A stretch of DNA of 64,000 nucleotides from contig NZ_CP009520.1 of the NCBI RefSeq assembly GCF_000969905.1, forward strand, positions 248,001 to 312,000, read 5' to 3'. Origin of the DNA: Methanosarcina vacuolata Z-761 (GTDB lineage Archaea > Halobacteriota > Methanosarcinia > Methanosarcinales > Methanosarcinaceae). A program made the translations under genes and the position numbers. Within the stretch, counting starts at the first letter, position 1, and each line of letters begins with the position of its first letter. The notes below the pieces were generated by a model. The model worked only from the letters and a program-made list of their open reading frames with translations. It made no database searches and was not told where the DNA came from. Positions 27,484 through 46,351 of this stretch are shown here, in pieces.

Positions 27484-28095
27484 TTAAATATTATTTATGT
27501 CTTTTAGATAAATGGTATCTTGACATAATCTGTCAATTAAATTTATGTCATGGCTTACGACCAGTACTCCAATATTAAGTTCTTCGACGATATTTAAAAC
27601 AATATTCCAGATTTGAGCTTGAGTAATAGCGTCTACCATTGTAGTAATTTCATCAGCAATTAAAAACCTGGTTTTAGGGCTTAAAGCTCTTGCAAGGGCA
27701 AACCTCTGCAGTTCTCCTCCTGAAAGCTCATTAGGCCATCGGTTGAGCCAGTTACTTTTAATTCCAAATGCTTCATTAATATCCTGTGAAACAAGGTGTC
27801 CTTCGTTTAGAATATCTTTCATTCTCCATTTAGGGTTTACAGCTTTTTCCGGGTGTTGAAAGACAAGCTGGACCGGGTTATAGCCTTTTGACGGGATATC
27901 TTTTCCATCTATACTTACTTTCCCCTGATACTTATTTTCGTAGCCTGCTAAGATCTTACATAGAGTAGATTTTCCGCTTCCGCTATCCCCAATGAGGCCC
28001 AGTACCTCCCCGCTACCTAACGAAATATTAACATCCTTTAAAATCAAATTATTTCTTTTATACCCGAAGCTTATGTTCTCACTTTTAAGACGCAT
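27484..28095 (-). CDS. Peptide/nickel-type ABC transporter ATPase, short (OppF/NikE-like)
   Basis: A 203-residue ABC ATPase: Walker A GLIGDSGSGKSTLCK, signature LSGGELQRFALARAL, Walker B FLIADEITTMVDAITQAQ and the His switch VVSHDIN. It ends soon after the switch and lacks the C-terminal oligopeptide-transporter domain of most OppF proteins. Short NikE- and CntF-type ATPases look alike. The start overlaps the OppD-like gene by 11 bp, so it is the last gene of the transporter operon. Confidence 0.9.
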   Translation of the reverse strand: MRLKSENISFGYKRNNLILKDVNISLGSGEVLGLIGDSGSGKSTLCKILAGYENKYQGKVSIDGKDIPSKGYNPVQLVFQHPEKAVNPKWRMKDILNEGHLVSQDINEAFGIKSNWLNRWPNELSGGELQRFALARALSPKTRFLIADEITTMVDAITQAQIWNIVLNIVEELNIGVLVVSHDINLIDRLCQDTIYLKDINNI

Positions 28096-29122
28096 TATTG
28101 CACCTCACCACCCCACCGTTGATCTGTTTCAATTGTGGAGTTCCCTGAGAACAGATAGCTTTCTTTTTTGAACATCTTTCATAAAAGATACACCCGTCGA
28201 TGACTTCATCCTGCATTGGTTGATGGCCTTTGATTGCCTGGAATTTATTCTGGGGAAGGGCACTCCAGAGTGCACGGGTATATGGGTGTCTCAGGTTCTC
28301 ACCATTATTTTTAAAGTCTTCAACGTTAGCTACTTCCAGAACCGTACCTGCATAAAATACTGCGATTTTATGGGAGATTTTTAATGCAGCTTCAATATCA
28401 TGAGTTATAAGTATCACTGCACACCCCTTATCTGCCATGTCTTTGAAGTAACTCAGGGTCTCGTTCAAAGTTTTTTCGTCTAACCCCGGGGTTGGTTCAT
28501 CCGCAATTACGAGTTTTGAAGAGCTTATTACAGCAGTCGAAACCAGAACTCTTCGGGCCATCCCTCCTGATAGCTCATGAGGGAGCATTCTTTCGACCTC
28601 GGGTTTTAAATTGTATCTCTGAAAAATTTCTCTCTGAAGTTTCCTCATTAAGCCTTCGTTTTCCTTTTCAATGCATCCTATTACTTGATTTGAGACTTTC
28701 ATTAAAGGATCAAGGTAGGTTATCGCTTGCGGAATCAGGGCTATTTCTTTGCCTCTCATTTCTTCTTTTCTTTCCTGAGTAAGTTCGTTGCCATCGTATT
28801 CTATCTTACCATCAAGTTTTGCGTTTGAAGGTAAAATTCCTAAAATAGCATGAGCCAGAAGACTTTTACCTGACCCGCTTGACCCTACGATAGCTAAAAT
28901 TTCACCTTTATAAGCCTGGATACTCAAATTAGAAATTACTTTCAGTTCAGTCTGCCTAAGGCCCGACGAATATTGAGTAAACGACAATGAAAGATCTTCT
29001 ACGTTCAACAGAGCTTCAGTTTTTTTCCGTCCTCTAGCAACTGTTTTATCTCTTTTTCCAACGACTGTTTCAAGTCCAGTGGCTAACTCTTTTTCAGGGT
29101 TTATTTCAGCTTTATTTCCCAT
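28085..29122 (-). CDS. Peptide/nickel-type ABC transporter ATPase (OppD/NikD-like)
   Basis: A 345-residue ABC ATPase. Walker A is AIVGSSGSGKSLLAHAI, the signature LSGGMARRVLVSTAV and Walker B KLVIADEPTPGLDEKT. The C-terminal ~70 residues, with HPYTRALWSALPQNKFQ and IFYERCSKKKAICSQGTPQL, form the oligopeptide/nickel transporter C-terminal domain with its Cys cluster. The N-terminal ~40 residues are charged and not conserved. It pairs with the short ATPase just downstream. Confidence 0.92.
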   Translation of the reverse strand: MGNKAEINPEKELATGLETVVGKRDKTVARGRKKTEALLNVEDLSLSFTQYSSGLRQTELKVISNLSIQAYKGEILAIVGSSGSGKSLLAHAILGILPSNAKLDGKIEYDGNELTQERKEEMRGKEIALIPQAITYLDPLMKVSNQVIGCIEKENEGLMRKLQREIFQRYNLKPEVERMLPHELSGGMARRVLVSTAVISSSKLVIADEPTPGLDEKTLNETLSYFKDMADKGCAVILITHDIEAALKISHKIAVFYAGTVLEVANVEDFKNNGENLRHPYTRALWSALPQNKFQAIKGHQPMQDEVIDGCIFYERCSKKKAICSQGTPQLKQINGGVVRCNNAS

Positions 29123-29174
29123 AATTCACACTCTCCAGATGTAAATATAACATATTTTTTATTCAGTACATTTT

Positions 29175-29328
29175 AGATCCAGCATACCTCTAATCTGGCA
29201 CACTTCTAATCCAGCACACTTCTAATCCAGTACACTTCTAATCCAGCACACTTCTAATTCAGCACACTTCTAATTCAGTACACTTCTAATCCAGCACACT
29301 TCTAATTCAGCACACTTCTAATTCAGTA
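29175..29328. repeat. Tandem repeat, ~16-bp unit
   Basis: About ten copies of CACTTCTAATCCAGCA (some TTCAG), in the gap between the permease operon and the OppD-like gene. The gap is 217 bp. Whether this splits the transporter into two transcripts is unknown. Confidence 0.8.
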
Positions 29329-29339
29329 ACAGATGAAAT

Positions 29340-30197
29340 TTATTCATGAGCATTTTTCGGATTCATCAGCTTTCCTAAACCTTCTCCAATCATATCAAAT
29401 GCCAGAACTACAATTAACAGCGATAATCCCGGGAAAAATGCAAGCCACCAGTATCCTGCTGAAAGATACCTCATAGATTCGGAAAGAATTATACCGATTG
29501 CCGGTTCATGCGGTGAAAGCCCAAACCCCAGGAATGTGACTGAAGCTTCGTGTAAAATCGCATGTGGAAACATTAAAATCGTGCCTAACAGTATCTGAGG
29601 AGCCAGATGAGGTAGAATGTGTTTTGTAGCTATCCACCATTTAGACCTGCCAAGATTCCTGGAGATCTGAATGTACTCCTGGGTTTTCAGCTGCTTGATT
29701 TCTGCTCTTACGACCCTTGTTAAGCTCGGCCAGTGCGTTAATGCAACTCCGATGATAACTCCTGTTGCTCCCCCTCCAATTCCTATGGAAATGAGAACTA
29801 TTAAAAGCAGGTGCGGAATTGAAAGAAAGAGGTCTACCAGCCAGGACACAAAGGTGTCTGCAGTTTTTCCTGCACTTGAAAGTAATCCTAAAATTACGGT
29901 CAATAGAGTGCTGATTATGGAAGCAAGCCCTCCAACCAATATGCTTAAACCCAGTCCTTCCAGAGTTCTTATAAACATGTCTCTTCCCATCCAATCTGTC
30001 CCGAATGGGTGTTCCATAGAAGGAGCGAGGTTTTTAGAGCCGAAATTGGTCTGTAGAGGTTCCTCGCCTAAAAAAACGCTGGAAGCCACAATTACAAGTA
30101 ATAAAAGTGAAGTGAAACCTATTATCAGAAGCGTTTTCTGCCTGAGATTTAGTCCTCTAAATAGTCCCCTGTTAACTGTCACAACAGCAGTGCTCAT
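29340..30197 (-). CDS. Peptide/nickel-type ABC permease (OppC/NikC-like)
   Basis: A 285-residue permease with about six helices. The N-terminal helix is followed by APSMEHPFGTDWMGRDMF, the usual OppC motif. LTHWPSLTRVVRAEIKQLKTQEY and a following helical stretch hold the EAA loop that contacts the ATPases. The start overlaps the end of the OppB-like gene by 4 bp. It transports oligopeptides, or metal chelates such as nickel, with the other subunits here. Confidence 0.93.
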   Translation of the reverse strand: MSTAVVTVNRGLFRGLNLRQKTLLIIGFTSLLLLVIVASSVFLGEEPLQTNFGSKNLAPSMEHPFGTDWMGRDMFIRTLEGLGLSILVGGLASIISTLLTVILGLLSSAGKTADTFVSWLVDLFLSIPHLLLIVLISIGIGGGATGVIIGVALTHWPSLTRVVRAEIKQLKTQEYIQISRNLGRSKWWIATKHILPHLAPQILLGTILMFPHAILHEASVTFLGFGLSPHEPAIGIILSESMRYLSAGYWWLAFFPGLSLLIVVLAFDMIGEGLGKLMNPKNAHE

Positions 30198-31186
30198 ATT
30201 AATGCCTCCTGTTGCTTTATCCTTGGGTCAACAAATTCATAGATGATATCAGCAATCAGGTTTCCGAAGAAAACAAAGAAAGTGCTGAAGATGACTATTC
30301 CCAAAAGAAGAGGTACATCGGATCTCAGTCCTGCTGCTACTGCAGCCTGTCCTATTCCGGGATATGAGAATACCTGTTCAACCAGGACTGTTCCCCCGAA
30401 AAGTTCACTGAATCCTAAAAACTGCAGGGTAATGGCCGGAAGTGCAACATTTCGAATTCCATGCCTCAATACAAGGTCCAGCCCATTTTCACCTCTTGCC
30501 TTTGCAAATAAGACGTAATCACTGGATAGAACTTCGATTAATTTTTCTCGAGTGAACATTGTAATTTTTGCAATGTCTAATAAACTCAAAGTTAGTGCAG
30601 GGAGAATTAAACGCTTAAACCATTCAAAAAACGTCACATTGTCGGCTGTAACTCCTATAGGGACACTTAATCCTATTGGGAACCAGCCCAGATATACTGA
30701 AAACACCATCAAAAGGATAAGTGCTAGCCAGAATGTTGGTGCAGCAGCCAGAGCGTAACAATAAATCTTTATCGCCTTATCGACCCACGTATCTTGCTTT
30801 GCACCAGCTATTATTCCTAAAACAAAACCCAGAATTCCTGAAAACAGCCATGAAATCCCCATCAGGGCGAGGGAAGCTGCAAATCGTTCTTTAATGACGT
30901 CAATAACTGGAATTCTATAAATCAGTGAAGTTCCAAAGTCTCCTTTAAGAATATCTCCAGCCCAGTTCAGGAATTTTTCCTGCGGAGGAGTATTAACCCC
31001 CCAGTATGCTTCAAGTTTAGCTTTGTGCTCTGCAGTTACTGGCATTTCCCCAATATAGGCTCTAACGGGATCTATAGGCGAATACTGGATAAGCATGAAA
31101 CTTGCAAGACAAACTATAATCAAAAGGCTTGTCAGTCGGAGGGCTTTTTTTCCGATGAAGCCCGCTATTTTTTCATTGTTTGACAC
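30194..31186 (-). CDS. Peptide/nickel-type ABC permease (OppB/NikB-like)
   Basis: A 330-residue permease. The N-terminal helix precedes IQYSPIDPVRAYIGEMPVT, a typical OppB/NikB start. The EAA-type segment is FAKARGENGLDLVLRHGIRNVALPA. It forms the second half of the membrane channel. It is the first of the four transporter genes downstream of the binding-protein genes. Confidence 0.93.
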   Translation of the reverse strand: MSNNEKIAGFIGKKALRLTSLLIIVCLASFMLIQYSPIDPVRAYIGEMPVTAEHKAKLEAYWGVNTPPQEKFLNWAGDILKGDFGTSLIYRIPVIDVIKERFAASLALMGISWLFSGILGFVLGIIAGAKQDTWVDKAIKIYCYALAAAPTFWLALILLMVFSVYLGWFPIGLSVPIGVTADNVTFFEWFKRLILPALTLSLLDIAKITMFTREKLIEVLSSDYVLFAKARGENGLDLVLRHGIRNVALPAITLQFLGFSELFGGTVLVEQVFSYPGIGQAAVAAGLRSDVPLLLGIVIFSTFFVFFGNLIADIIYEFVDPRIKQQEALI

Positions 31187-31607: not shown

Positions 31608-33368
31608 TCATTTGGAAGTCGGGCTGTTTGTGTCTACTCTTTTCCATTCGTAGATATTTCCTAAAACATCTGCTCCTGCGTTTCTTTGTGGAGTACCCAT
31701 ATCCAGGGTTTCGTCTGCCATGTAGAGGTAATCAATCGTCACCAGCCATAACCATGTAGCATCTCCTGCTGGCCCAAAACCGGTATTTCCGTCATATGCA
31801 GCTAATTTCCAGTACTTTGTAGCCTGGTCCTGATCTGTAGACTTTAAAGCTGTTTCCAGATATCCGTCTACAACAGAGTTATTGTAAAGGCCGGGGTTTC
31901 TGTAGGTATCGTCGGCTTCTTTGCTGTGGTACTGCTGGTAGAGATTAAAGGTATCTATGCTGCTGTAAGCGTATAACACAGCGGAACTGTACTGGTTGGC
32001 ATATATTTCGTCCCAGCTTGCTCCTACAAGATCTATTTTTATGCCTAATTCTTTGGCCTGTTCGCTTACAGCTACCGATAGAGCTTGCCTTGTCTGGTCC
32101 GAAGCAGAGTAGTATAGCTTAAATTCGGCTTTTGTTCCGTTCTTCTCCCGAATTCCATCGCCGTCAGTGTCTTTCCAGCCTGCGTTTTCCAGTATTTTTT
32201 TGGCTTCTTCAGGATTTGAATCATTAACTTTCGCTTCAGGGTTCCCAAAGTTCCGCTGGTCTACTCCGGTGTATTCTACGGCTCCTTTTCCGTATATAAC
32301 TCCTTCAAGCAGGTTTTTTCTGTCTATACCGATGTTTAAGGCTTTTCTAATTGCTATGTCTGCTGTGACATTATTGCCTATTGGGTCTCCCTGAAGGCTT
32401 TTTTTGCCTGTGTTATTCTGCATAGGGAAGGATAGTCCCTGAGCTCTTGCTGCCGGAAGAGCTACTAACTTGTACCCATCCACGGTCTGGTTTGCATGGC
32501 TAATCTCAATCTCAGCTATGTCCAAATCCCCGGATTTTACTGCTGCAAGCGCAGTATCTTTATCCAAAAACAGCATGGTTATTTTTTTGAAGTACGGCTT
32601 TTTTCCATAGTAATTTTCGTTTAATTCTAAGATTGCCTGCTGGCCCTTATCCCATTCTACGAGTTTATATGGCCCAGACCCTATCGGATTGGACCCGTAG
32701 GTTTCTTTTTTGTATGCATGTTCTGGTACAATCCCAACGTATCTGAGTCTCCATATGAAACTGGACTGAGGTTCTTTCAGTTTGAATTCAACTGCAGTAT
32801 TATTTATTGCAGTGGCTTTTTCGAGATTGCTCATATCCAGTTCGGAGTTACTTCCAATTGCGGTATTAAACGTAAATGCCACATCTTCTGCAGTTAAGTT
32901 TTCACCGTCTGTAAACCTGACATCATCTCTTATATACACAGTCCAGTTTTTCCCATCCGAACTGACAGAATAATTCGTAGCAAGATCGTTTATTATGCTT
33001 CCATCATCAGCTGATTTAAAAAGAGTGCTCTGTATAAGTGGCTCAAAATTCACATGCCCGCACCCCCATCCCAGAAGGGGGTCAAATCCGGTTTCGGGTT
33101 CACCTGTATGTGAATTTACATTCACCACAAGTTCATCAGAGCTTTTAGAAGCCAGATCATCCGAGCCTCCGGAAACTGATTCCTCCGAATCCCCGGAAAC
33201 CGATTCATCCGAATTCCCTGAAACCAATTCACCCGAGCTCCCGGAAACCGATTCATCAGAAACCTGGGATGACGAGCTAATAGGACCGCCAATCGATGTT
33301 AAAATAAAAATAATCGCTATAATTATGATTACTGTCCCTATCAGTAGATACTGTTGTTTTTTCTGAAT
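31608..33368 (-). CDS. Family 5 substrate-binding protein (peptide/nickel type), paralogue 1
   Basis: About 586 residues, starting at a proposed AUU codon (33366-33368). GGAGGT lies at 33375-33380, 7 nt upstream. The resulting N-terminus (IQKKQQYLLIG, then a helix of Ile/Val/Ala) gives a membrane anchor. A Ser-rich linker with repeats such as DESVSGGS follows, then the binding domain with EPETGFDPLLGWG and YGSNPIGSGPYKLVEWDKGQQA. The first standard start, a TTG at 33227, would remove the anchor. It is a peptide/nickel-type binding protein attached to the outer membrane face. Confidence 0.87.
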   Translation of the reverse strand: MQKKQQYLLIGTVIIIIAIIFILTSIGGPISSSSQVSDESVSGSSGELVSGNSDESVSGDSEESVSGGSDDLASKSSDELVVNVNSHTGEPETGFDPLLGWGCGHVNFEPLIQSTLFKSADDGSIINDLATNYSVSSDGKNWTVYIRDDVRFTDGENLTAEDVAFTFNTAIGSNSELDMSNLEKATAINNTAVEFKLKEPQSSFIWRLRYVGIVPEHAYKKETYGSNPIGSGPYKLVEWDKGQQAILELNENYYGKKPYFKKITMLFLDKDTALAAVKSGDLDIAEIEISHANQTVDGYKLVALPAARAQGLSFPMQNNTGKKSLQGDPIGNNVTADIAIRKALNIGIDRKNLLEGVIYGKGAVEYTGVDQRNFGNPEAKVNDSNPEEAKKILENAGWKDTDGDGIREKNGTKAEFKLYYSASDQTRQALSVAVSEQAKELGIKIDLVGASWDEIYANQYSSAVLYAYSSIDTFNLYQQYHSKEADDTYRNPGLYNNSVVDGYLETALKSTDQDQATKYWKLAAYDGNTGFGPAGDATWLWLVTIDYLYMADETLDMGTPQRNAGADVLGNIYEWKRVDTNSPTSK

Positions 33369-33380
33369 CTGAATACCTCC
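33363..33380 (-). promoter_or_regulatory. Strong RBS with AUU start
   Basis: GGAGGT at 33375-33380 is followed after 7 nt by ATT CAG AAA. No ATG, GTG or TTG in this frame can encode the N-terminal membrane helix. The paralogue at 35548 has the same arrangement. Confidence 0.6.
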
Positions 33381-33553
33381 TCTATTTTACCAGAGTCCTG
33401 AACATTTAAGCAAAAATTGAACTATCAAGTAACGATTTTTAAACTTGACCAGATGATCCTGAATTTTGTATTAAATGTTATTTTCTTGATGAAACTTGAT
33501 AATTATATGTTACTTTTTTTAGTAAAGTTATGATATCTCAATTAAAACAATTT

Positions 33554-33590
33554 ACTATAAATACATTCCGAAATATATGTGTTACAAATT
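33554..33590 (-). promoter_or_regulatory. Conserved upstream element of binding-protein gene 1
   Basis: A 36-bp stretch (33555-33590) is identical at 33 of 36 positions to 35718-35753, upstream of the second binding-protein gene. Distance to the start is 187 bp here and 170 bp there. It holds an AT-rich box (AAATATATGT) in a partly palindromic setting, so it could be a shared promoter or operator. Confidence 0.55.
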
Positions 33591-33862
33591 CTTCGTTTTA
33601 AGTAATTTAGTAATACTGAATAGAAACTTTTGCGCGTTTTCTTGAATTTTCAAATAGTCGACGCGTTGAATACTGAAAAAAAGTATAAATTCTATCGATC
33701 CTGAAAAAGAGCAAAGGCAAAATATAAATTTCAATCAAATTTGCCAAAAAAGAGTCACACTGAGGAGTTTTTCATCCCCAGTTTTACTAAGAACTTTAAG
33801 GAATAGTTCTCAATCTTTCTAAGAGACTTTTATGACCGTTCCTTGAAAATCCAGATTTCAGT

Positions 33863-35548
33863 TTAATTTTCTGTACGTTTCCACTCCAGGATATTGCCGA
33901 AGATATCGGCACCATGAGGCTGAATTTTGGGAGTTCCGAAATCTATATCCTTGTCCATAATGTACATGTAATTGATAGTTGCAATCCAGAGCCAGGTAGC
34001 GTCTCCTTTTTCTGAAAATCCTGTTGTTCCATCCCAGGCAGCCAGTTGCCAGTTTTTATTGGCAGTATCCTCATCAGTGCTGGTTATGGCTGTCCTTAGA
34101 TAGTTATCCACGACCGAATTGTTGTACAGTATTATATTGTTGTAGTTTGCAGGGTCATAGCTTTTGCTGTAGTATTTCAGGTATAAGTCAGTCGGGTCCA
34201 GTGTGCCGAAACCGAAAATTACCGGAGTTGAATGCGCCAGAGTGTCAATCTCATCCCAGCTCTTACCCTCGACTTTAATGTTTATTCCCAGTTTTTTAGC
34301 TTCCTCGCTCAATGCAACGGATAATGCTTGCCTTTCCTGGGCGCCTGAGTAATATAATAATGTAAATTCTGCTTTCGTCCCATTCTTTTCAAGGATACCA
34401 TCACTGTCGGTATCTTCCCAGCCGGCGTCTGCTAATATTTTCTTTGCTTCGTCTACTTTTCCGTCTTCGAATATAGCTTCCTTATTGCCCCAGGGCAGTT
34501 TGTCCACTCCAGTAAATTCCTCTTCACCCTGCCCGTTTAATGCACCATCGATTAAGGTCTGTCTGTTTATTCCGATATTCAGGGCTTTTCTTATCGCAGG
34601 ATCGGAGGTTACATTATTTCCGATTGAATAGCCATTTTCCGTTTTCTTTCCTGTGTCGGGTTGCATCGGGAAAGTTATACCACGAGCATCAATGGAACTA
34701 AGAGACACTATTTTCATTCCATCTACTTTTTGATTAGCGTATGAGGATGGAATTTCAGCTACGTCGACCTGTCCTGATTTAGCTGCTGCGAAAGCTGTGT
34801 CGGACTGCATGAAGAGTAAAGTTAATTTTTTAAAGTACGGTTTCTGGCCATAATAATCCGGGTTTGCTTCAAAGATTGCCTGCTGGCCTTTATCCCATTC
34901 TACGAATCGGTATGGGCCAGACCCGATTGGATGTTCTCCGTAAGTCTCATTGTAAGCATGTTCAGGCACAATCCCGACAGCTGCAAGCTTGTGAATGAAA
35001 GTCGTCTGCGGGTCGTTTAATGTGAATTCAACCGTGTAGTTATCGAGGGCTACAGCATTTTTCAAAACTGAGAGATCGACTCCACTCGAATTTGCCGCAG
35101 TGTTAAATGTGAATGCTACGTCCCTTGCCGTTAAGGGCACTCCATCATGGAATTTAACGTCATTCCTTACATCAACAGTCCAGGTAAACCCATCGTCACT
35201 GACAGAGTAGTTTGTAGCTAAATCATTGATCAGAGATCCATTACTGTCCTTTTCAAAAAGAGTACTTTGAACCAGCGGCTCACGACTATAACCCCATCCT
35301 GTAATCGGGTTAAAACCTGTTTCCGGTTCTCCGCCATGTGTCCCTATGGCTGCCACCAGCTCGTCCGAGCCCTGGGAAGTTGATACATTCGAATCTCCGG
35401 AAGCTAACTCATTCGAACCTCCGGATACTGCTTCATCCGATACCCCTGAAGCCGGATTGTCGGTCTCATTTCCCGGAATGAAAGCAATAGCCGCTACAAT
35501 AATTATGGCTATTAAACCTATCAAGAGATATTGCTGATTTTTCTGGAT
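33863..35548 (-). CDS. Family 5 substrate-binding protein (peptide/nickel type), paralogue 2
   Basis: About 561 residues, starting at a proposed AUC codon (35546-35548) with GGAGG 7 nt upstream (35556-35560). The N-terminus (IQKNQQYLLIG) matches paralogue 1, then comes a helix (LIAIIIVAAIAFI). A Ser/Gly-rich linker is followed by GGEPETGFNPITGWG and HPIGSGPYRFVEWDKGQQA. It shares the binding fold with paralogue 1 but differs throughout, so substrate ranges may differ. The standard TTG at 35524 would leave only part of the anchor helix exposed. Confidence 0.88.
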   Translation of the reverse strand: MQKNQQYLLIGLIAIIIVAAIAFIPGNETDNPASGVSDEAVSGGSNELASGDSNVSTSQGSDELVAAIGTHGGEPETGFNPITGWGYSREPLVQSTLFEKDSNGSLINDLATNYSVSDDGFTWTVDVRNDVKFHDGVPLTARDVAFTFNTAANSSGVDLSVLKNAVALDNYTVEFTLNDPQTTFIHKLAAVGIVPEHAYNETYGEHPIGSGPYRFVEWDKGQQAIFEANPDYYGQKPYFKKLTLLFMQSDTAFAAAKSGQVDVAEIPSSYANQKVDGMKIVSLSSIDARGITFPMQPDTGKKTENGYSIGNNVTSDPAIRKALNIGINRQTLIDGALNGQGEEEFTGVDKLPWGNKEAIFEDGKVDEAKKILADAGWEDTDSDGILEKNGTKAEFTLLYYSGAQERQALSVALSEEAKKLGINIKVEGKSWDEIDTLAHSTPVIFGFGTLDPTDLYLKYYSKSYDPANYNNIILYNNSVVDNYLRTAITSTDEDTANKNWQLAAWDGTTGFSEKGDATWLWIATINYMYIMDKDIDFGTPKIQPHGADIFGNILEWKRTEN

Positions 35549-35560
35549 TAAAATTCCTCC
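35546..35560 (-). promoter_or_regulatory. Strong RBS with AUC start
   Basis: GGAGG at 35556-35560 is followed after 7 nt by ATC CAG AAA. The spacing and first three codons match the sibling gene at 33368. Confidence 0.6.
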
Positions 35561-35717: not shown

Positions 35718-35753
35718 CTATAAATACATTCCTAAATATATGTAATACAAATT
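35718..35753 (-). promoter_or_regulatory. Conserved upstream element of binding-protein gene 2
   Basis: This is the second copy of the 36-bp element, 33 of 36 identical to that upstream of the first binding-protein gene. It lies 170 bp before the AUC start. Confidence 0.55.
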
Positions 35754-36091: not shown

Positions 36092-39000
36092 ATTCGTGAG
36101 CAAGATCCACTAAAACAAGGATTGAAACTATATACTTTGAAACCTATTACTATATACTGAAAGAATTCGTGAGCAAGATCCACTAAAACAAGGATTGAAA
36201 CTATTTCTTTTTTAGAAACAGATGACAATTTCCGTGAATTCGTGAGCAAGATCCACTAAAACAAGGATTGAAACTTCCCCACGCTCGCTGCTGCAATCGG
36301 AACAGTCGGTAATTCGTGAGCAAGATCCACTAAAACAAGGATTGAAACCATCACCATCAACGGCAATATGGACAGCGACTTTTGATTCGTGAGCAAGATC
36401 CACTAAAACAAGGATTGAAACCTACTGTAAGAGAGACTGTGATATACTCGATAAGGCTTATTCGTGAGCAAGATCCACTAAAACAAGGATTGAAACTAAA
36501 AGATCATGGGTTTCGATGGGGGGGGTTTGACGTATTCGTGAGCAAGATCCACTAAAACAAGGATTGAAACCTTATATGATACTGTAGTATAGTAGTATTG
36601 TAGTATTCGTGAGCAAGATCCACTAAAACAAGGATTGAAACGTTTTAGAAACTGATTTAACTCTACCAGCATATAAATTCGTGAGCAAGATCCACTAAAA
36701 CAAGGATTGAAACCCTTCTCCAGTATCCCACTTAGAATCCGATCTGGGAATTCGTGAGCAAGATCCACTAAAACAAGGATTGAAACCGATCATGACAAAA
36801 TCAAAAAAGGTTTCTTGGATGGAAAAACAATTCGTGAGCAAGATCCACTAAAACAAGGATTGAAACTACACTTCTGTCCTTTCTTTGCGCCGGGAATAGC
36901 GGATTCGTGAGCAAGATCCACTAAAACAAGGATTGAAACTACCTGTATATGTTGAAGAAACGGAACCCGAATAAAATTCGTGAGCAAGATCCACTAAAAC
37001 AAGGATTGAAACAGAGTATCTAAAACTGTTCGAAAGAATCGGCAATATATTCGTGAGCAAGATCCACTAAAACAAGGATTGAAACTAAAATCCAAGTCAT
37101 CTTGGGATAAACTGATGCTGGATTCGTGAGCAAGATCCACTAAAACAAGGATTGAAACACATATTTTCACAATATTGTCCATCATTTGGCCAAATTCGTG
37201 AGCAAGATCCACTAAAACAAGGATTGAAACTCAACTACAAGGAAATTTAACCCCATACTTAAAAAAAATTCGTGAGCAAGATCCACTAAAACAAGGATTG
37301 AAACCAGTCAAGTTTAACGGTAATATTCCGCTTTTACCCTATTCGTGAGCAAGATCCACTAAAACAAGGATTGAAACAACGACAGGCACTCGCAGATGAA
37401 CTTGAGAAGTATTCGTGAGCAAGATCCACTAAAACAAGGATTGAAACAGACCAAACCCAAAACACCAAACCCGATAACCAATATTCGTGAGCAAGATCCA
37501 CTAAAACAAGGATTGAAACGTTACCCAGACTTCCCGAACTCCAGTTCCTACCATCATTCGTGAGCAAGATCCACTAAAACAAGGATTGAAACTGTTTTCC
37601 ACCCCTAACGTAACTTTGATCCCTCTTATTCGTGAGCAAGATCCACTAAAACAAGGATTGAAACATTAGAGGTTGATAGACTTTGTTTTTCTCTATTATA
37701 TTCGTGAGCAAGATCCACTAAAACAAGGATTGAAACTTATTGACCTCCAGCATACGCTTTTTACGCCGGTGAATTCGTGAGCAAGATCCACTAAAACAAG
37801 GATTGAAACGGATCTGAATTGCCGTATATGGTACAGGGTTAGATTCGTGAGCAAGATCCACTAAAACAAGGATTGAAACACGTTGTTGTATGATGCTGTT
37901 GCATTTGCGTCGTTATTCGTGAGCAAGATCCACTAAAACAAGGATTGAAACTTTCTAAAAAATCTGATGAAAGAACCTGTTACCTTATTCGTGAGCAAGA
38001 TCCACTAAAACAAGGATTGAAACTCAAATCTGTTAACATTTTTCTCACCTGAAAATTAATTCGTGAGCAAGATCCACTAAAACAAGGATTGAAACTTTTC
38101 TAAAACTCCGCACCACTCACAAACATATGTTTCCATCTTTTATTCGTGAGCAAGATCCACTAAAACAAGGATTGAAACAATAGCACACCAACTTTAGTAA
38201 TATTATACATTAAATTCGTGAGCAAGATCCACTAAAACAAGGATTGAAACCTTATGTAATTCATATTGTGATTGCGATATGTATAATTATTCGTGAGCAA
38301 GATCCACTAAAACAAGGATTGAAACTCGTGTTCATTACATCACCTCCCTGTGTAGTAAATATATTCGTGAGCAAGATCCACTAAAACAAGGATTGAAACA
38401 TTTCCATCATGAATAATATAATAGATCCATTTTTATATTCGTGAGCAAGATCCACTAAAACAAGGATTGAAACCTGTTGGCGCATCTGGAAAAATTACAC
38501 AAATTGTTATTCGTGAGCAAGATCCACTAAAACAAGGATTGAAACCTTGCTTTGATGTTTTGATGAGCAAGTGCTCTACTATTCGTGAGCAAGATCCACT
38601 AAAACAAGGATTGAAACTTCAGAGTTCCCGTATCATCGGTTGCTGTTTTAACGATTCGTGAGCAAGATCCACTAAAACAAGGATTGAAACCATTTGGAAA
38701 AAACAGATTGAGAGGGCATTATATGACATTCGTGAGCAAGATCCACTAAAACAAGGATTGAAACATCTGTTGTAATTTTTTATCTCCTGAGCCTTCAGGA
38801 TTCGTGAGCAAGATCCACTAAAACAAGGATTGAAACAACCCCCTTCTAATTTTGGAGATCCCCTGGTATAATTCGTGAGCAAGATCCACTAAAACAAGGA
38901 TTGAAACCTAAGACTAAGATTGCTGAGTTCTCGGGTATTCCGGTTATTCGTGAGCAAGATCCACTAAAACAAGGATTGAAACATCTGTTGTAATTTTTTA

Positions 39001-40006
39001 TCTCCTGAGCCTTCAGGATTCGTGAGCAAGATCCACTAAAACAAGGATTGAAACTTGTTTGACCGTCCACATCAATCCATGAAATAACATATTCGTGAGC
39101 AAGATCCACTAAAACAAGGATTGAAACCGTCAGATTCACCTAGAAAAAGGATTTCAGGGAAAATTCGTGAGCAAGATCCACTAAAACAAGGATTGAAACT
39201 TGTTTGACCGTCCACATCAATCCATGAAATAACATATTCGTGAGCAAGATCCACTAAAACAAGGATTGAAACCAACCTACCTTATCTGCTATTTCTCGGG
39301 TTTTCTGCATTCGTGAGCAAGATCCACTAAAACAAGGATTGAAACTCGTGATCGAGTACTCGTTTTGCTCCTTTTCGGTTATTCGTGAGCAAGATCCACT
39401 AAAACAAGGATTGAAACCAACCTACCTTATCTGCTATTTCTCGGGTTTTCTGCATTCGTGAGCAAGATCCACTAAAACAAGGATTGAAACTCGTGATCGA
39501 GTACTCGTTTTGCTCCTTTTCGGTTATTCGTGAGCAAGATCCACTAAAACAAGGATTGAAACTTTAAACAATGTTATGAAATTTGTATGACTTTTTGGGT
39601 ATTCGTGAGCAAGATCCACTAAAACAAGGATTGAAACTATTAATAATAGATGATTGCATTAATATTAATAAAATTCGTGAGCAAGATCCACTAAAACAAG
39701 GATTGAAACCATTCAATATAGTCTAATATGTGTTTTCCATCAGCTATTCGTGAGCAAGATCCACTAAAACAAGGATTGAAACTGTATTATCAGTACCGCT
39801 GTCACTACCCGAGCAACCAAATTCGTGAGCAAGATCCACTAAAACAAGGATTGAAACACAATATACTCTTCTTGAGCAGTAAGTATACGTTCTTATTCGT
39901 GAGCAAGATCCACTAAAACAAGGATTGAAACATTACACCATTTTCGAGTTGTGGAACTCTTTTTACAACATTCGTGAGCAAGATCCACTAAAACAAGGAT
40001 TGAAAC
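36092..40006 (+). CRISPR. CRISPR array 1, 54 repeats, 37-bp unit
   Basis: I count 54 repeats of 37 bp that look identical: they begin ATTCGTGAGCAAGATCC and end AAGGATTGAAAC. The 53 spacers are 34-38 bp, and the mean repeat start spacing is about 73 bp. Spacers near the 3' end are duplicated: a 35-bp spacer at 38765 and 38983, a 36-bp spacer at 39055 and 39200, and a two-spacer block at 39273 repeated at 39418. Transcription probably runs on the plus strand. The only processing enzyme visible is the Cas6 further downstream. Confidence 0.98.
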
Positions 40007-44195: not shown

Positions 44196-44908
44196 GTCGA
44201 AAAGTAGCTTCCACTAAAACAAGGATTGAAACTAATTTTATGCCATTATTTATAGCTTGCTGATGTGCATAGTCGAAAAGTAGCTTCCACTAAAACAAGG
44301 ATTGAAACTGTTTGATCTACAATGTTTTGTAGAAATATTTTTATGGTCGAAAAGTAGCTTCCACTAAAACAAGGATTGAAACAATAGGTTTATCAAGGTT
44401 AACAAAGCGGAATGTTGTCGAAAAGTAGCTTCCACTAAAACAAGGATTGAAACTATCAACCTCACGCTGTTGCGTTTTTTGCTTCTTTTGTCGAAAAGTA
44501 GCTTCCACTAAAACAAGGATTGAAACACTCATGCCAAGTTACAGCACGAGCGTATACTGCTGCATGTCGAAAAGTAGCTTCCACTAAAACAAGGATTGAA
44601 ACCCTTTTGGAAGCATCTGGCATCCAGTTCTGAATTCAACATCGTCGAAAAGTAGCTTCCACTAAAACAAGGATTGAAACATAACATTTTCACCTTGAAC
44701 CAGAAAGTATACCTCTTGGTCGAAAAGTAGCTTCCACTAAAACAAGGATTGAAACTCTTCCGATAATGCATCGAGAACAGGGATAGAGTTTTCGTCGAAA
44801 AGTAGCTTCCACTAAAACAAGGATTGAGACAATTTTTTATCTACGGTATAGCGAGCAACATATTGCACGTTGTCGAAAAGTAGCTTCCACTAAAACAAGG
44901 ATTGAACC
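44196..44908 (+). CRISPR. CRISPR array 2, 10 repeats, 37-bp unit
   Basis: Ten repeats begin at 44196, 44272, 44346, 44417, 44490, 44566, 44644, 44719, 44794 and 44872. They begin GTCGAAAAGTAGCTTCC and end AAGGATTGAAAC. The last 22 bases are the same as in array 1, the first 15 are different. Repeats 9 (ATTGAGAC) and 10 (ATTGAACC) carry single changes, which marks the old end. Spacers are 34-41 bp. Confidence 0.97.
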
Positions 44909-45115: not shown

Positions 45116-45152
45116 CCGTAGATGATTGAAAATTAAGAATCATTTACGGAGG
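45116..45152 (+). promoter_or_regulatory. Hairpin 2 overlapping the RT ribosome-binding site
   Basis: CCGTAGATGATT (45116-45127) pairs with AATCATTTACGG (45138-45149), 11 of 12 bases, around a 10-nt loop. The ribosome-binding site GGAGG starts at 45148, inside the base of the stem. Folding would partly block translation start, so it may regulate the RT. Confidence 0.4.
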
Positions 45153-45160
45153 TATCTGAG

Positions 45161-46351
45161 ATCCAGAAGCAAAAATTGGCAGAAATTCAATTGAAATTGT
45201 ACAATAAAGCAAAAAGAAACCCTGGAAAAAGGTTTAAAAAGCTTAAAAAACTGTTTTTGAAAGAAGAAGTTCTTTACACAGCCTGGAAGAATTTAAACCG
45301 GAATACAAAAGGCACTGGTTTTGATTCTCTTACTATCCAGCAGGTAGAGGCTTCAGGGGTCGAAAACTTCATCCGTTCAGTAAAGAAAGAGCTTAAAAGT
45401 GAAAAATACGCTGCTGGCGAAGTGAAAAGAGTCAAAATTCCAAAAAAGAACGGGGAAACGAGACAACTTGGAATTCTTACTTTAAAAGACCGGCTTGTCC
45501 AGGGAGCTGTAAAACTCGTTCTTGAGCCGATTTTTGAAGCTGATTTTGAAAACTGCTCCTACGGCTACCGTGCTTACAGGTCTGCAAAACTCGCCAGCCT
45601 TGAAGTTTACAAATGGCTTGAAACTGGGAATATCCATTACCTGAAGGGAGATATTGAGGACTGTTTTGACAGCGTCCCGCATGATAAGCTCATGAAAGTC
45701 CTTAAAACAAGAATCGAAGATGAGTTAATACTTTCTCTGATTGAGGACTGGCTTAAAAAAGGTTCAGTTGAAAGCAGTTCTGGAAAATATTCCGGAAAAG
45801 GGCTGCTTCAGGGCGGAATAATCTCACCTCTTCTTTTAAACTTCTATCTTGACCAGTTTGACAACCAGTGGGCTGAAATCGGGCTGAAGAACATTGAAGG
45901 GGACTCAGTTGAGCATCTTGTGCGTTTTGCAGATGATTTTGTGATCCTTTCAAAGGAATGGATCAATCCTGACAGAGTTGAGGCTGTTCTGGATGTACTG
46001 GGCCTTGAATTTAACAAAGAAAAGACCTATGTTGGGACTGCAGCTAATGGGTTTGAGTTCGTAGGCTTCTATTTTCAAGAGATTGTTGATGAGAAGGGGT
46101 TCGAAAGGAGTATAAAAATCATACCTACTGAAGGGTCTATTGAGAAGGTAATTAAGAGCATTGAAAGTATGGGATGTGTGGAAAAAGCAATATTTGATCA
46201 TAAAAATGAAAACGGGGCTCCAAAGCGTTCTATTAAAAATATATCTAATGTTGTTGACCCGTGGGTGAACTATTACAGACATACGGATTACGCGGTTGGG
46301 CTTGAAAGAATTAAACAAAGCGTTAACAAATGGATAAAAGAGTTTACTTAA
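45161..46351 (+). CDS. Reverse transcriptase (group II intron-like), CRISPR-linked
   Basis: A 391-396-residue RT. The palm motifs are GDIEDCFDSVPHDKL (motif A), LLQGGIISPLLLNFYLDQ (motif B) and VRFADDFVILSK (motif C, FADD). The end, VNYYRHTDYAVGLERIKQS, resembles a maturase/thumb segment. No intron domain V is seen around it, so it is not an intact group II intron. The standard TTG at 45176 is 23 nt from the GGAGG. An ATC at 45161 has 8-nt spacing and is preferred here. It runs 60 bp ahead of cas6 in the same operon. RTs linked to CRISPR usually copy RNA for spacer uptake with Cas1; no Cas1 is visible. Confidence 0.9.
   Translation: MQKQKLAEIQLKLYNKAKRNPGKRFKKLKKLFLKEEVLYTAWKNLNRNTKGTGFDSLTIQQVEASGVENFIRSVKKELKSEKYAAGEVKRVKIPKKNGETRQLGILTLKDRLVQGAVKLVLEPIFEADFENCSYGYRAYRSAKLASLEVYKWLETGNIHYLKGDIEDCFDSVPHDKLMKVLKTRIEDELILSLIEDWLKKGSVESSSGKYSGKGLLQGGIISPLLLNFYLDQFDNQWAEIGLKNIEGDSVEHLVRFADDFVILSKEWINPDRVEAVLDVLGLEFNKEKTYVGTAANGFEFVGFYFQEIVDEKGFERSIKIIPTEGSIEKVIKSIESMGCVEKAIFDHKNENGAPKRSIKNISNVVDPWVNYYRHTDYAVGLERIKQSVNKWIKEFT

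Follow-up and report, generated by a model that had tools for sequence, protein, structure and literature searches.

Three genes in a 64,000-nucleotide stretch of the Methanosarcina vacuolata Z-761 genome (the window) very probably begin at near-cognate codons: two paralogous genes for extracellular solute-binding proteins (SBP genes A and B) at AUC and AUU respectively, and a reverse transcriptase (RT) gene at AUC. The position of these codons, their conservation, their spacing from the Shine-Dalgarno (SD) sequence and the exchange of such codons with AUG or GUG in orthologues or paralogues are shown. That translation truly initiates at them is inferred from sequence alone, as there are no N-terminal peptide or ribosome-profiling data. 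It is also very likely, again without protein data, that Methanosarcina, and in part its whole family, has fixed AUU, AUC, AUA and ACG as starts for a small set of genes.

Start motifs in the window

The three genes, their SD sequences and their start motifs are as follows.

SBP gene A: 33863..35548, minus strand; family-5 extracellular solute-binding protein, 561 codons, predicted start AUC at 35548-35546
SD of gene A, GGAGG: 35556..35560, minus strand; 7 nt before the AUC, a spacing that is constant in all genus copies
Start motif of gene A: 35560-35540, minus strand; GGAGGAATTTTA-ATC-CAGAAA
SBP gene B: 31608..33368, minus strand; paralogue of A, 586 codons, predicted start AUU at 33368-33366
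SD of gene B, GGAGG: 33376..33380, minus strand; 7 nt before the AUU
Start motif of gene B: 33380-33360, minus strand; GGAGGTATTCAG-ATT-CAGAAA
RT gene: 45161..46351, plus strand; RVT_1 (E 3e-31), predicted start AUC at 45161-45163
SD of the RT gene, GGAGG: 45148..45152, plus strand; 8 nt before the AUC
Start motif of the RT gene: 45148-45169, plus strand; GGAGGTATCTGAG-ATC-CAGAAG

The pattern GGAGG-N4..10-ATHCAGAAR occurs three times in the window, against 0.10 expected from shuffles, and three or more occurrences were seen in 0 of 100 shuffles. A first-pass annotation had described GGAGG, 7 nt and then AUU or AUC CAG AAA in the two SBP paralogues, and GGAGG with an 8-nt spacing before AUC CAG AAG in the RT gene; both descriptions match the sequence exactly. 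Its further claim, that no in-frame AUG, GUG or UUG could substitute, held only in part. It is strictly true of gene B, where the frame is open from 33386 and the first in-frame canonical codon is a TTG 141 nt downstream of the AUU. Gene A (frame open from 35575) breaks the claim with a TTG at codon 9 (+24), which has no SD of its own and is not conserved in the orthologues; these carry AUU or AUC in the same column as the AUC of gene A. Nor is the CAG AAA shared by the two genes the conserved element. The second codon is AAG, CAG, CGG or AGG in orthologues, and CAG AAA was rejected as part of the signal because it is not conserved among them. What is invariant across the SBP orthologues is GGAGG, the 7-nt spacing and AUH (AUU, AUC or AUA).

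The SBP genes and their transporter

Both SBPs pass the gathering cut-off of SBP_bac_5 (PF00496; 32.4), with 253.6 and 240.4 bits (E 4e-75 for gene A and 4e-71 for gene B). The rest of the importer comprises the following genes, which are listed with ordinary GTG/ATG starts.

Importer remainder: 27484..31186, minus strand; two permeases and two ATPases of the Opp/Nik families
Permeases: 30194-31186 and 29340-30197, minus strand
ATPases: 28085-29122 and 27484-28095, minus strand

This is the gene order of family-5 (Opp/Dpp/Nik) ABC importers, in which an SBP_bac_5 protein is followed by two permeases and two ATPases. Unlike those systems, the genes described here score far below the curated NikA and Opp cut-offs: the two SBPs reach 137.9 and 173.3 bits against a cut-off of 393 for NikA (TIGR02294), and the Opp/Nik permease and ATPase scores are all under theirs. 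The ligand of the transporter is left unassigned for this reason.

In other genera of the family (L399-L404) the SBP has a lipobox-like SGC after the signal sequence, while the Methanosarcina copies lack this Cys. The Methanosarcina protein seems to be held in the membrane by its N-terminal helix, a suggestion that rests on sequence alone. A near-identical 35-nt element, TATAAATACATTCCNAAATATATGTNNTACAAATT, precedes each SBP gene by about 170-190 nt (33556-33590 and 35719-35753), where zero such pairs are expected by chance. It contains TACAT-N10-ATGTA and is probably a promoter or operator shared by genes A and B, although this too is an inference from the sequence.

Conservation of the SBP start

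Relatives were drawn from 31 genus genomes and named contigs. The query was the SBP protein body only, which avoids a bias from the N-terminus; start regions were read afterwards, with AUN, GUG, UUG and degenerate SDs all permitted. All 45 distinct copies with an identifiable start, from Methanosarcina and its nearest sister genus, have GGAGG, 7 nt and AUH (AUA once), and AUG, GUG or UUG occupies the start site in none of these 45. One contig is partial, and in one species (L126; G002:C9:199000-204000) gene A has a broken 5' end and its frame is not open until within the Ser-rich linker; gene B of that species is undamaged and has AUU. Copies found in other genera carry AUG in the matching codon, and in each of the 64 homologues checked, bacterial and otherwise distant, the open frame includes a canonical start codon. 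In a motif-anchored set of 48 SBP copies the codons are AUU (37), AUC (10) and AUA (1).

It could be argued that AUH merely encodes an internal Ile, in a longer protein whose translation begins upstream and reaches AUH by stop readthrough or a frameshift. In favour of this, 16 of the 48 copies have no in-frame stop within the nine codons upstream of AUH. Against it, a stop of varying kind (TAA, TAG or TGA) stands directly before AUH in 20 of the 48, and therefore no upstream in-frame start is possible there; a stop lies within seven codons in 12 more. No upstream AUG is conserved, and the upstream sequence is not coding-like in its conservation. This explanation is all but excluded.

A second alternative places the start at a canonical codon further downstream, namely the UUG at codon 9 in gene A and the one at +141 in gene B, and leaves AUH within an untranslated leader. 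A start at the +24 TTG of gene A would indeed retain most of the membrane helix. However, this codon lacks both conservation and an SD, as described above, and gene B offers no canonical codon before +141, which lies past its membrane helix. In addition, the residues IKKNQQYLLIG are conserved between the paralogues right from AUH, and it is from AUH onward that substitution falls sharply and the coding pattern sets in. In this substitution profile, the zeros inside the SD and AU and the constraint on codon 3 are imposed by the pattern used for selection, and the remainder is not. A downstream start is thus considered very unlikely. Initiation at AUH remains the preferred reading, and the predicted N-termini would be (M)KKNQQ... 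or (M)QKNQQ....

The RT gene and its CRISPR surroundings

The RT gene is flanked by a CRISPR array on one side and by cas6/RAMP (cmr-like) genes on the other. Its start codons in five species are AUC, AUU, AUC, AUA and AUU, each 8 nt after GGAGG. Conservation of the start in other Methanosarcina had been proposed in the first-pass annotation as a check on its reading, and the check was passed both by the SBP copies and by the RT gene in these five species. Two CRISPR arrays with differing repeat variants (Rfam CRISPR-DR7) lie in the surrounding region: one at 36092-40006 with 54 repeats, the other at 44196-44908 with about 10 repeats and ending immediately ahead of the RT-cas6-cmr-like operon.

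Probable near-cognate starts in other genes

A scan for similar cases covered 1.26 Mb in stretches, or 28% of the 4.56-Mb genome (773 coding frames), and considered GGAGG-type SDs only. At AUG starts in the scanned genome GGAGG lies 6-10 nt upstream, with a peak at 6-9 nt and 7 nt as the commonest spacing. Among frames without a canonical start, 9 of 14 have AUH, ACG or CUG 7-8 nt after GGAGG, where 1.65 were expected (p 5e-6); the 14 include SBP A, SBP B and the RT gene. Near-cognate starts amount to about 1% of genes in this sample, which is a rough figure given the fraction of a single genome covered and the restriction to GGAGG. What the first-pass annotation did not recognise is that such starts recur in many of the family's genes and do not single out the SBP pair. 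Five further gene families from the scan were checked by their orthologues.

The first codes for a dimethylamine-type corrinoid protein with B12-binding domains and lies directly upstream of a gene with an in-frame TAG at codon 334; we take these to be mtbC and mttB, names given from knowledge of the operon. The mtbC start is AUU AGC in 24 Methanosarcina species, while paralogues have AUG. Elsewhere it is AUU in 6 sister-genus loci, and ACG (9 loci) or AUG (5) in other genera. The N-terminus predicted from the AUU is (M)SKEELLQELADAIISCK. In the mtbC leader (L225 ~1488-1510; C2:575126 in the M. vacuolata genome) the SD runs into an AUG in most species, GGAGGAUG CAN NAU UAG, giving a four-codon frame, AUG-CAN-NAU-UAG, that has a two-base overlap with the AUU start. 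Reinitiation from this mini-frame was considered but is not favoured, as one-base indels break it in some species (L234, L235, L238 and L243).

The start of an MFS transporter gene is AUA in 8 orthologues, GUG in 5, and AUC and GUA in one each. The GUA (L262) replaces AUA/GUG at a site that has GGAGG 7 nt before it and lacks any other in-frame start; it might be an even weaker start or a sign that the gene is decaying. A second aRF1 gene starts with ACG in 4 species, AUG in 8 and GUG in 1. It is an intact, divergent copy, about 67% identical to the main one and present in ~12 of 31 Methanosarcina genomes (L270-L281), and its ACG start is confined to one clade. A PKD-type surface protein has AUA or AUU in 19 of 20 cases (AUA 10; AUU 9, seven of them one codon upstream), with one unclear, and an NHL-repeat protein has AUU here and AUG in four relatives.

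In the MFS, second aRF1 and NHL genes, and in mtbC compared with its paralogues, AUH or ACG occupies the same alignment column as the AUG or GUG of relatives; of the sequence evidence for these codons as starts, this is the strongest. What would be asked of a near-cognate start, namely correct SD spacing, conservation, alignment with AUG in relatives and the lack of a canonical alternative, is met, except that gene A has its in-frame TTG at +24. The interpretation of AUU and AUC as real starts, as first proposed for the SBP genes, is therefore very likely to be correct, although it lacks proof at the protein level.

Proposed mechanism of initiation

In the mechanism we propose, a strong, unoccluded GGAGG SD 7-8 nt upstream would park the 30S subunit, and AUH would be read, through third-base wobble or mismatch, by the ordinary initiator Met-tRNA (CAU). 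The first residue would most likely be Met, although Met versus Ile is untested. Initiation at AUH would be less efficient than usual, an expectation that follows from aIF1, which reportedly destabilises non-AUG initiation complexes in archaea (PMC6237735). Selection may maintain the weak start as a means of limiting or regulating output, a point on which the evidence is only suggestive.

Near-cognate pairing by the ordinary tRNA is the simplest mechanism because the SD is strong and optimally placed, there is no excess structure, the initiators are CAU, and there is a single, AUG-started aIF1. There are two initiator tRNA genes, identical and with a CAU anticodon, and AUG is the start of the aIF1 gene at the loci examined. 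An extra, genus-specific aIF1 copy was rejected, the gene being single throughout the family save for one weak match below the cut-off. Folding of the mRNA around the starts showed no more structure than shuffles; an occluding leader hairpin or riboswitch was rejected on this ground, and Rfam found only CRISPR repeats in 31-46 kb.

A special initiator tRNA that reads AUU/AUC and inserts Ile as first residue would fit the third base, which is only T, C or A in the SBP and RT genes. The absence of G is also expected of a constrained Ile codon, and other Ile columns of the SBP look alike, which counts against the favoured reading of AUH as a start. Against such a tRNA, the sole initiator-type anticodon stem-loops found are those of the two CAU genes, and a pattern search of the M. 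vacuolata genome revealed no GAU initiator tRNA. Moreover, orthologues of the MFS and NHL genes have AUG/GUG in exchange for AUH, and ACG is used too. Ile initiation is very improbable, and acceptance of the ordinary Met-tRNA is retained.

Selection or drift

A different objection accepts AUH as the start but attributes it to neutral drift tolerated by the strong SD, without any selection for weak initiation. We lean slightly against this explanation. In its support, substitution rates make the absence of AUG from a single gene family no more than mildly unusual, the G-free third base is weak evidence (7 of 86 fourfold columns are also without G), and within their families the second aRF1 gene and the NHL gene alternate between ACG or AUU and AUG. 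On the other side, four families (SBP, RT, surface protein and, within Methanosarcina and its sister genera, mtbC) lack AUG in every orthologue examined. Published reconstructions place AUG to AUU switches at about 1 in 61,358 AUG starts (PMC5622118). Pure drift sits uncomfortably with the combination of this rarity and the genus-wide lack of AUG in four families.

A bolder reading, possible but inferred and not shown, is that the Methanosarcinaceae have a class of genes whose AUU, AUC, AUA and ACG starts are selected as a regulated device for weak initiation. Such starts might, for example, be sensitive to aIF1/aIF2 activity or to growth state, and the class could span transport, methylamine metabolism, a release factor and a CRISPR-linked reverse transcriptase.

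Significance and comparison with known systems

No report of AUH starts in Methanosarcina was found in the open-access literature searched, nor any N-terminal or start-codon report for M. barkeri MtbC; older methylamine papers were outside the scope of that search and may contain one. Ribo-seq of M. mazei reported only ATG, GTG, TTG and CTG for unannotated sORFs (PMC11456600). Non-AUG initiation as such is known, but conserved use of AUU, AUC, AUA and ACG across several genes of an archaeal family is apparently undescribed in the literature searched. Such starts are not predicted by textbook rules of archaeal initiation and are missed by annotation pipelines. If the reading is correct, genes of a major methanogen family, among them the core methylamine gene mtbC, are systematically overlooked by gene-callers or given wrong starts. 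A natural, conserved set of AUH/ACG starts would also serve as a probe of how the archaeal 30S subunit, aIF1 and aIF2 police start-codon choice, and the question is directly testable in the genetically tractable M. acetivorans, M. mazei and M. barkeri.

The classic conserved AUU start is that of bacterial infC, which encodes IF3 and is autoregulated in an IF3-dependent manner. As in the genes described here, a fixed AUU follows an SD and is retained across related species. The infC gene differs in being bacterial and in encoding the discriminating factor itself, whereas the present cases are archaeal genes for transporters, a methyltransferase system, an RT and a surface protein. Autoregulation of the infC type was not supported, since aIF1 is single-copy with an AUG start and no autoregulatory loop is evident. 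In archaea and bacteria the ordinary initiator tRNA likewise reads the weaker start codons GUG and UUG, which often come with stronger SDs (PMC5622118), but AUU, AUC, AUA and ACG differ from them in falling outside the ATG/GTG/TTG rule of the ORF caller used.
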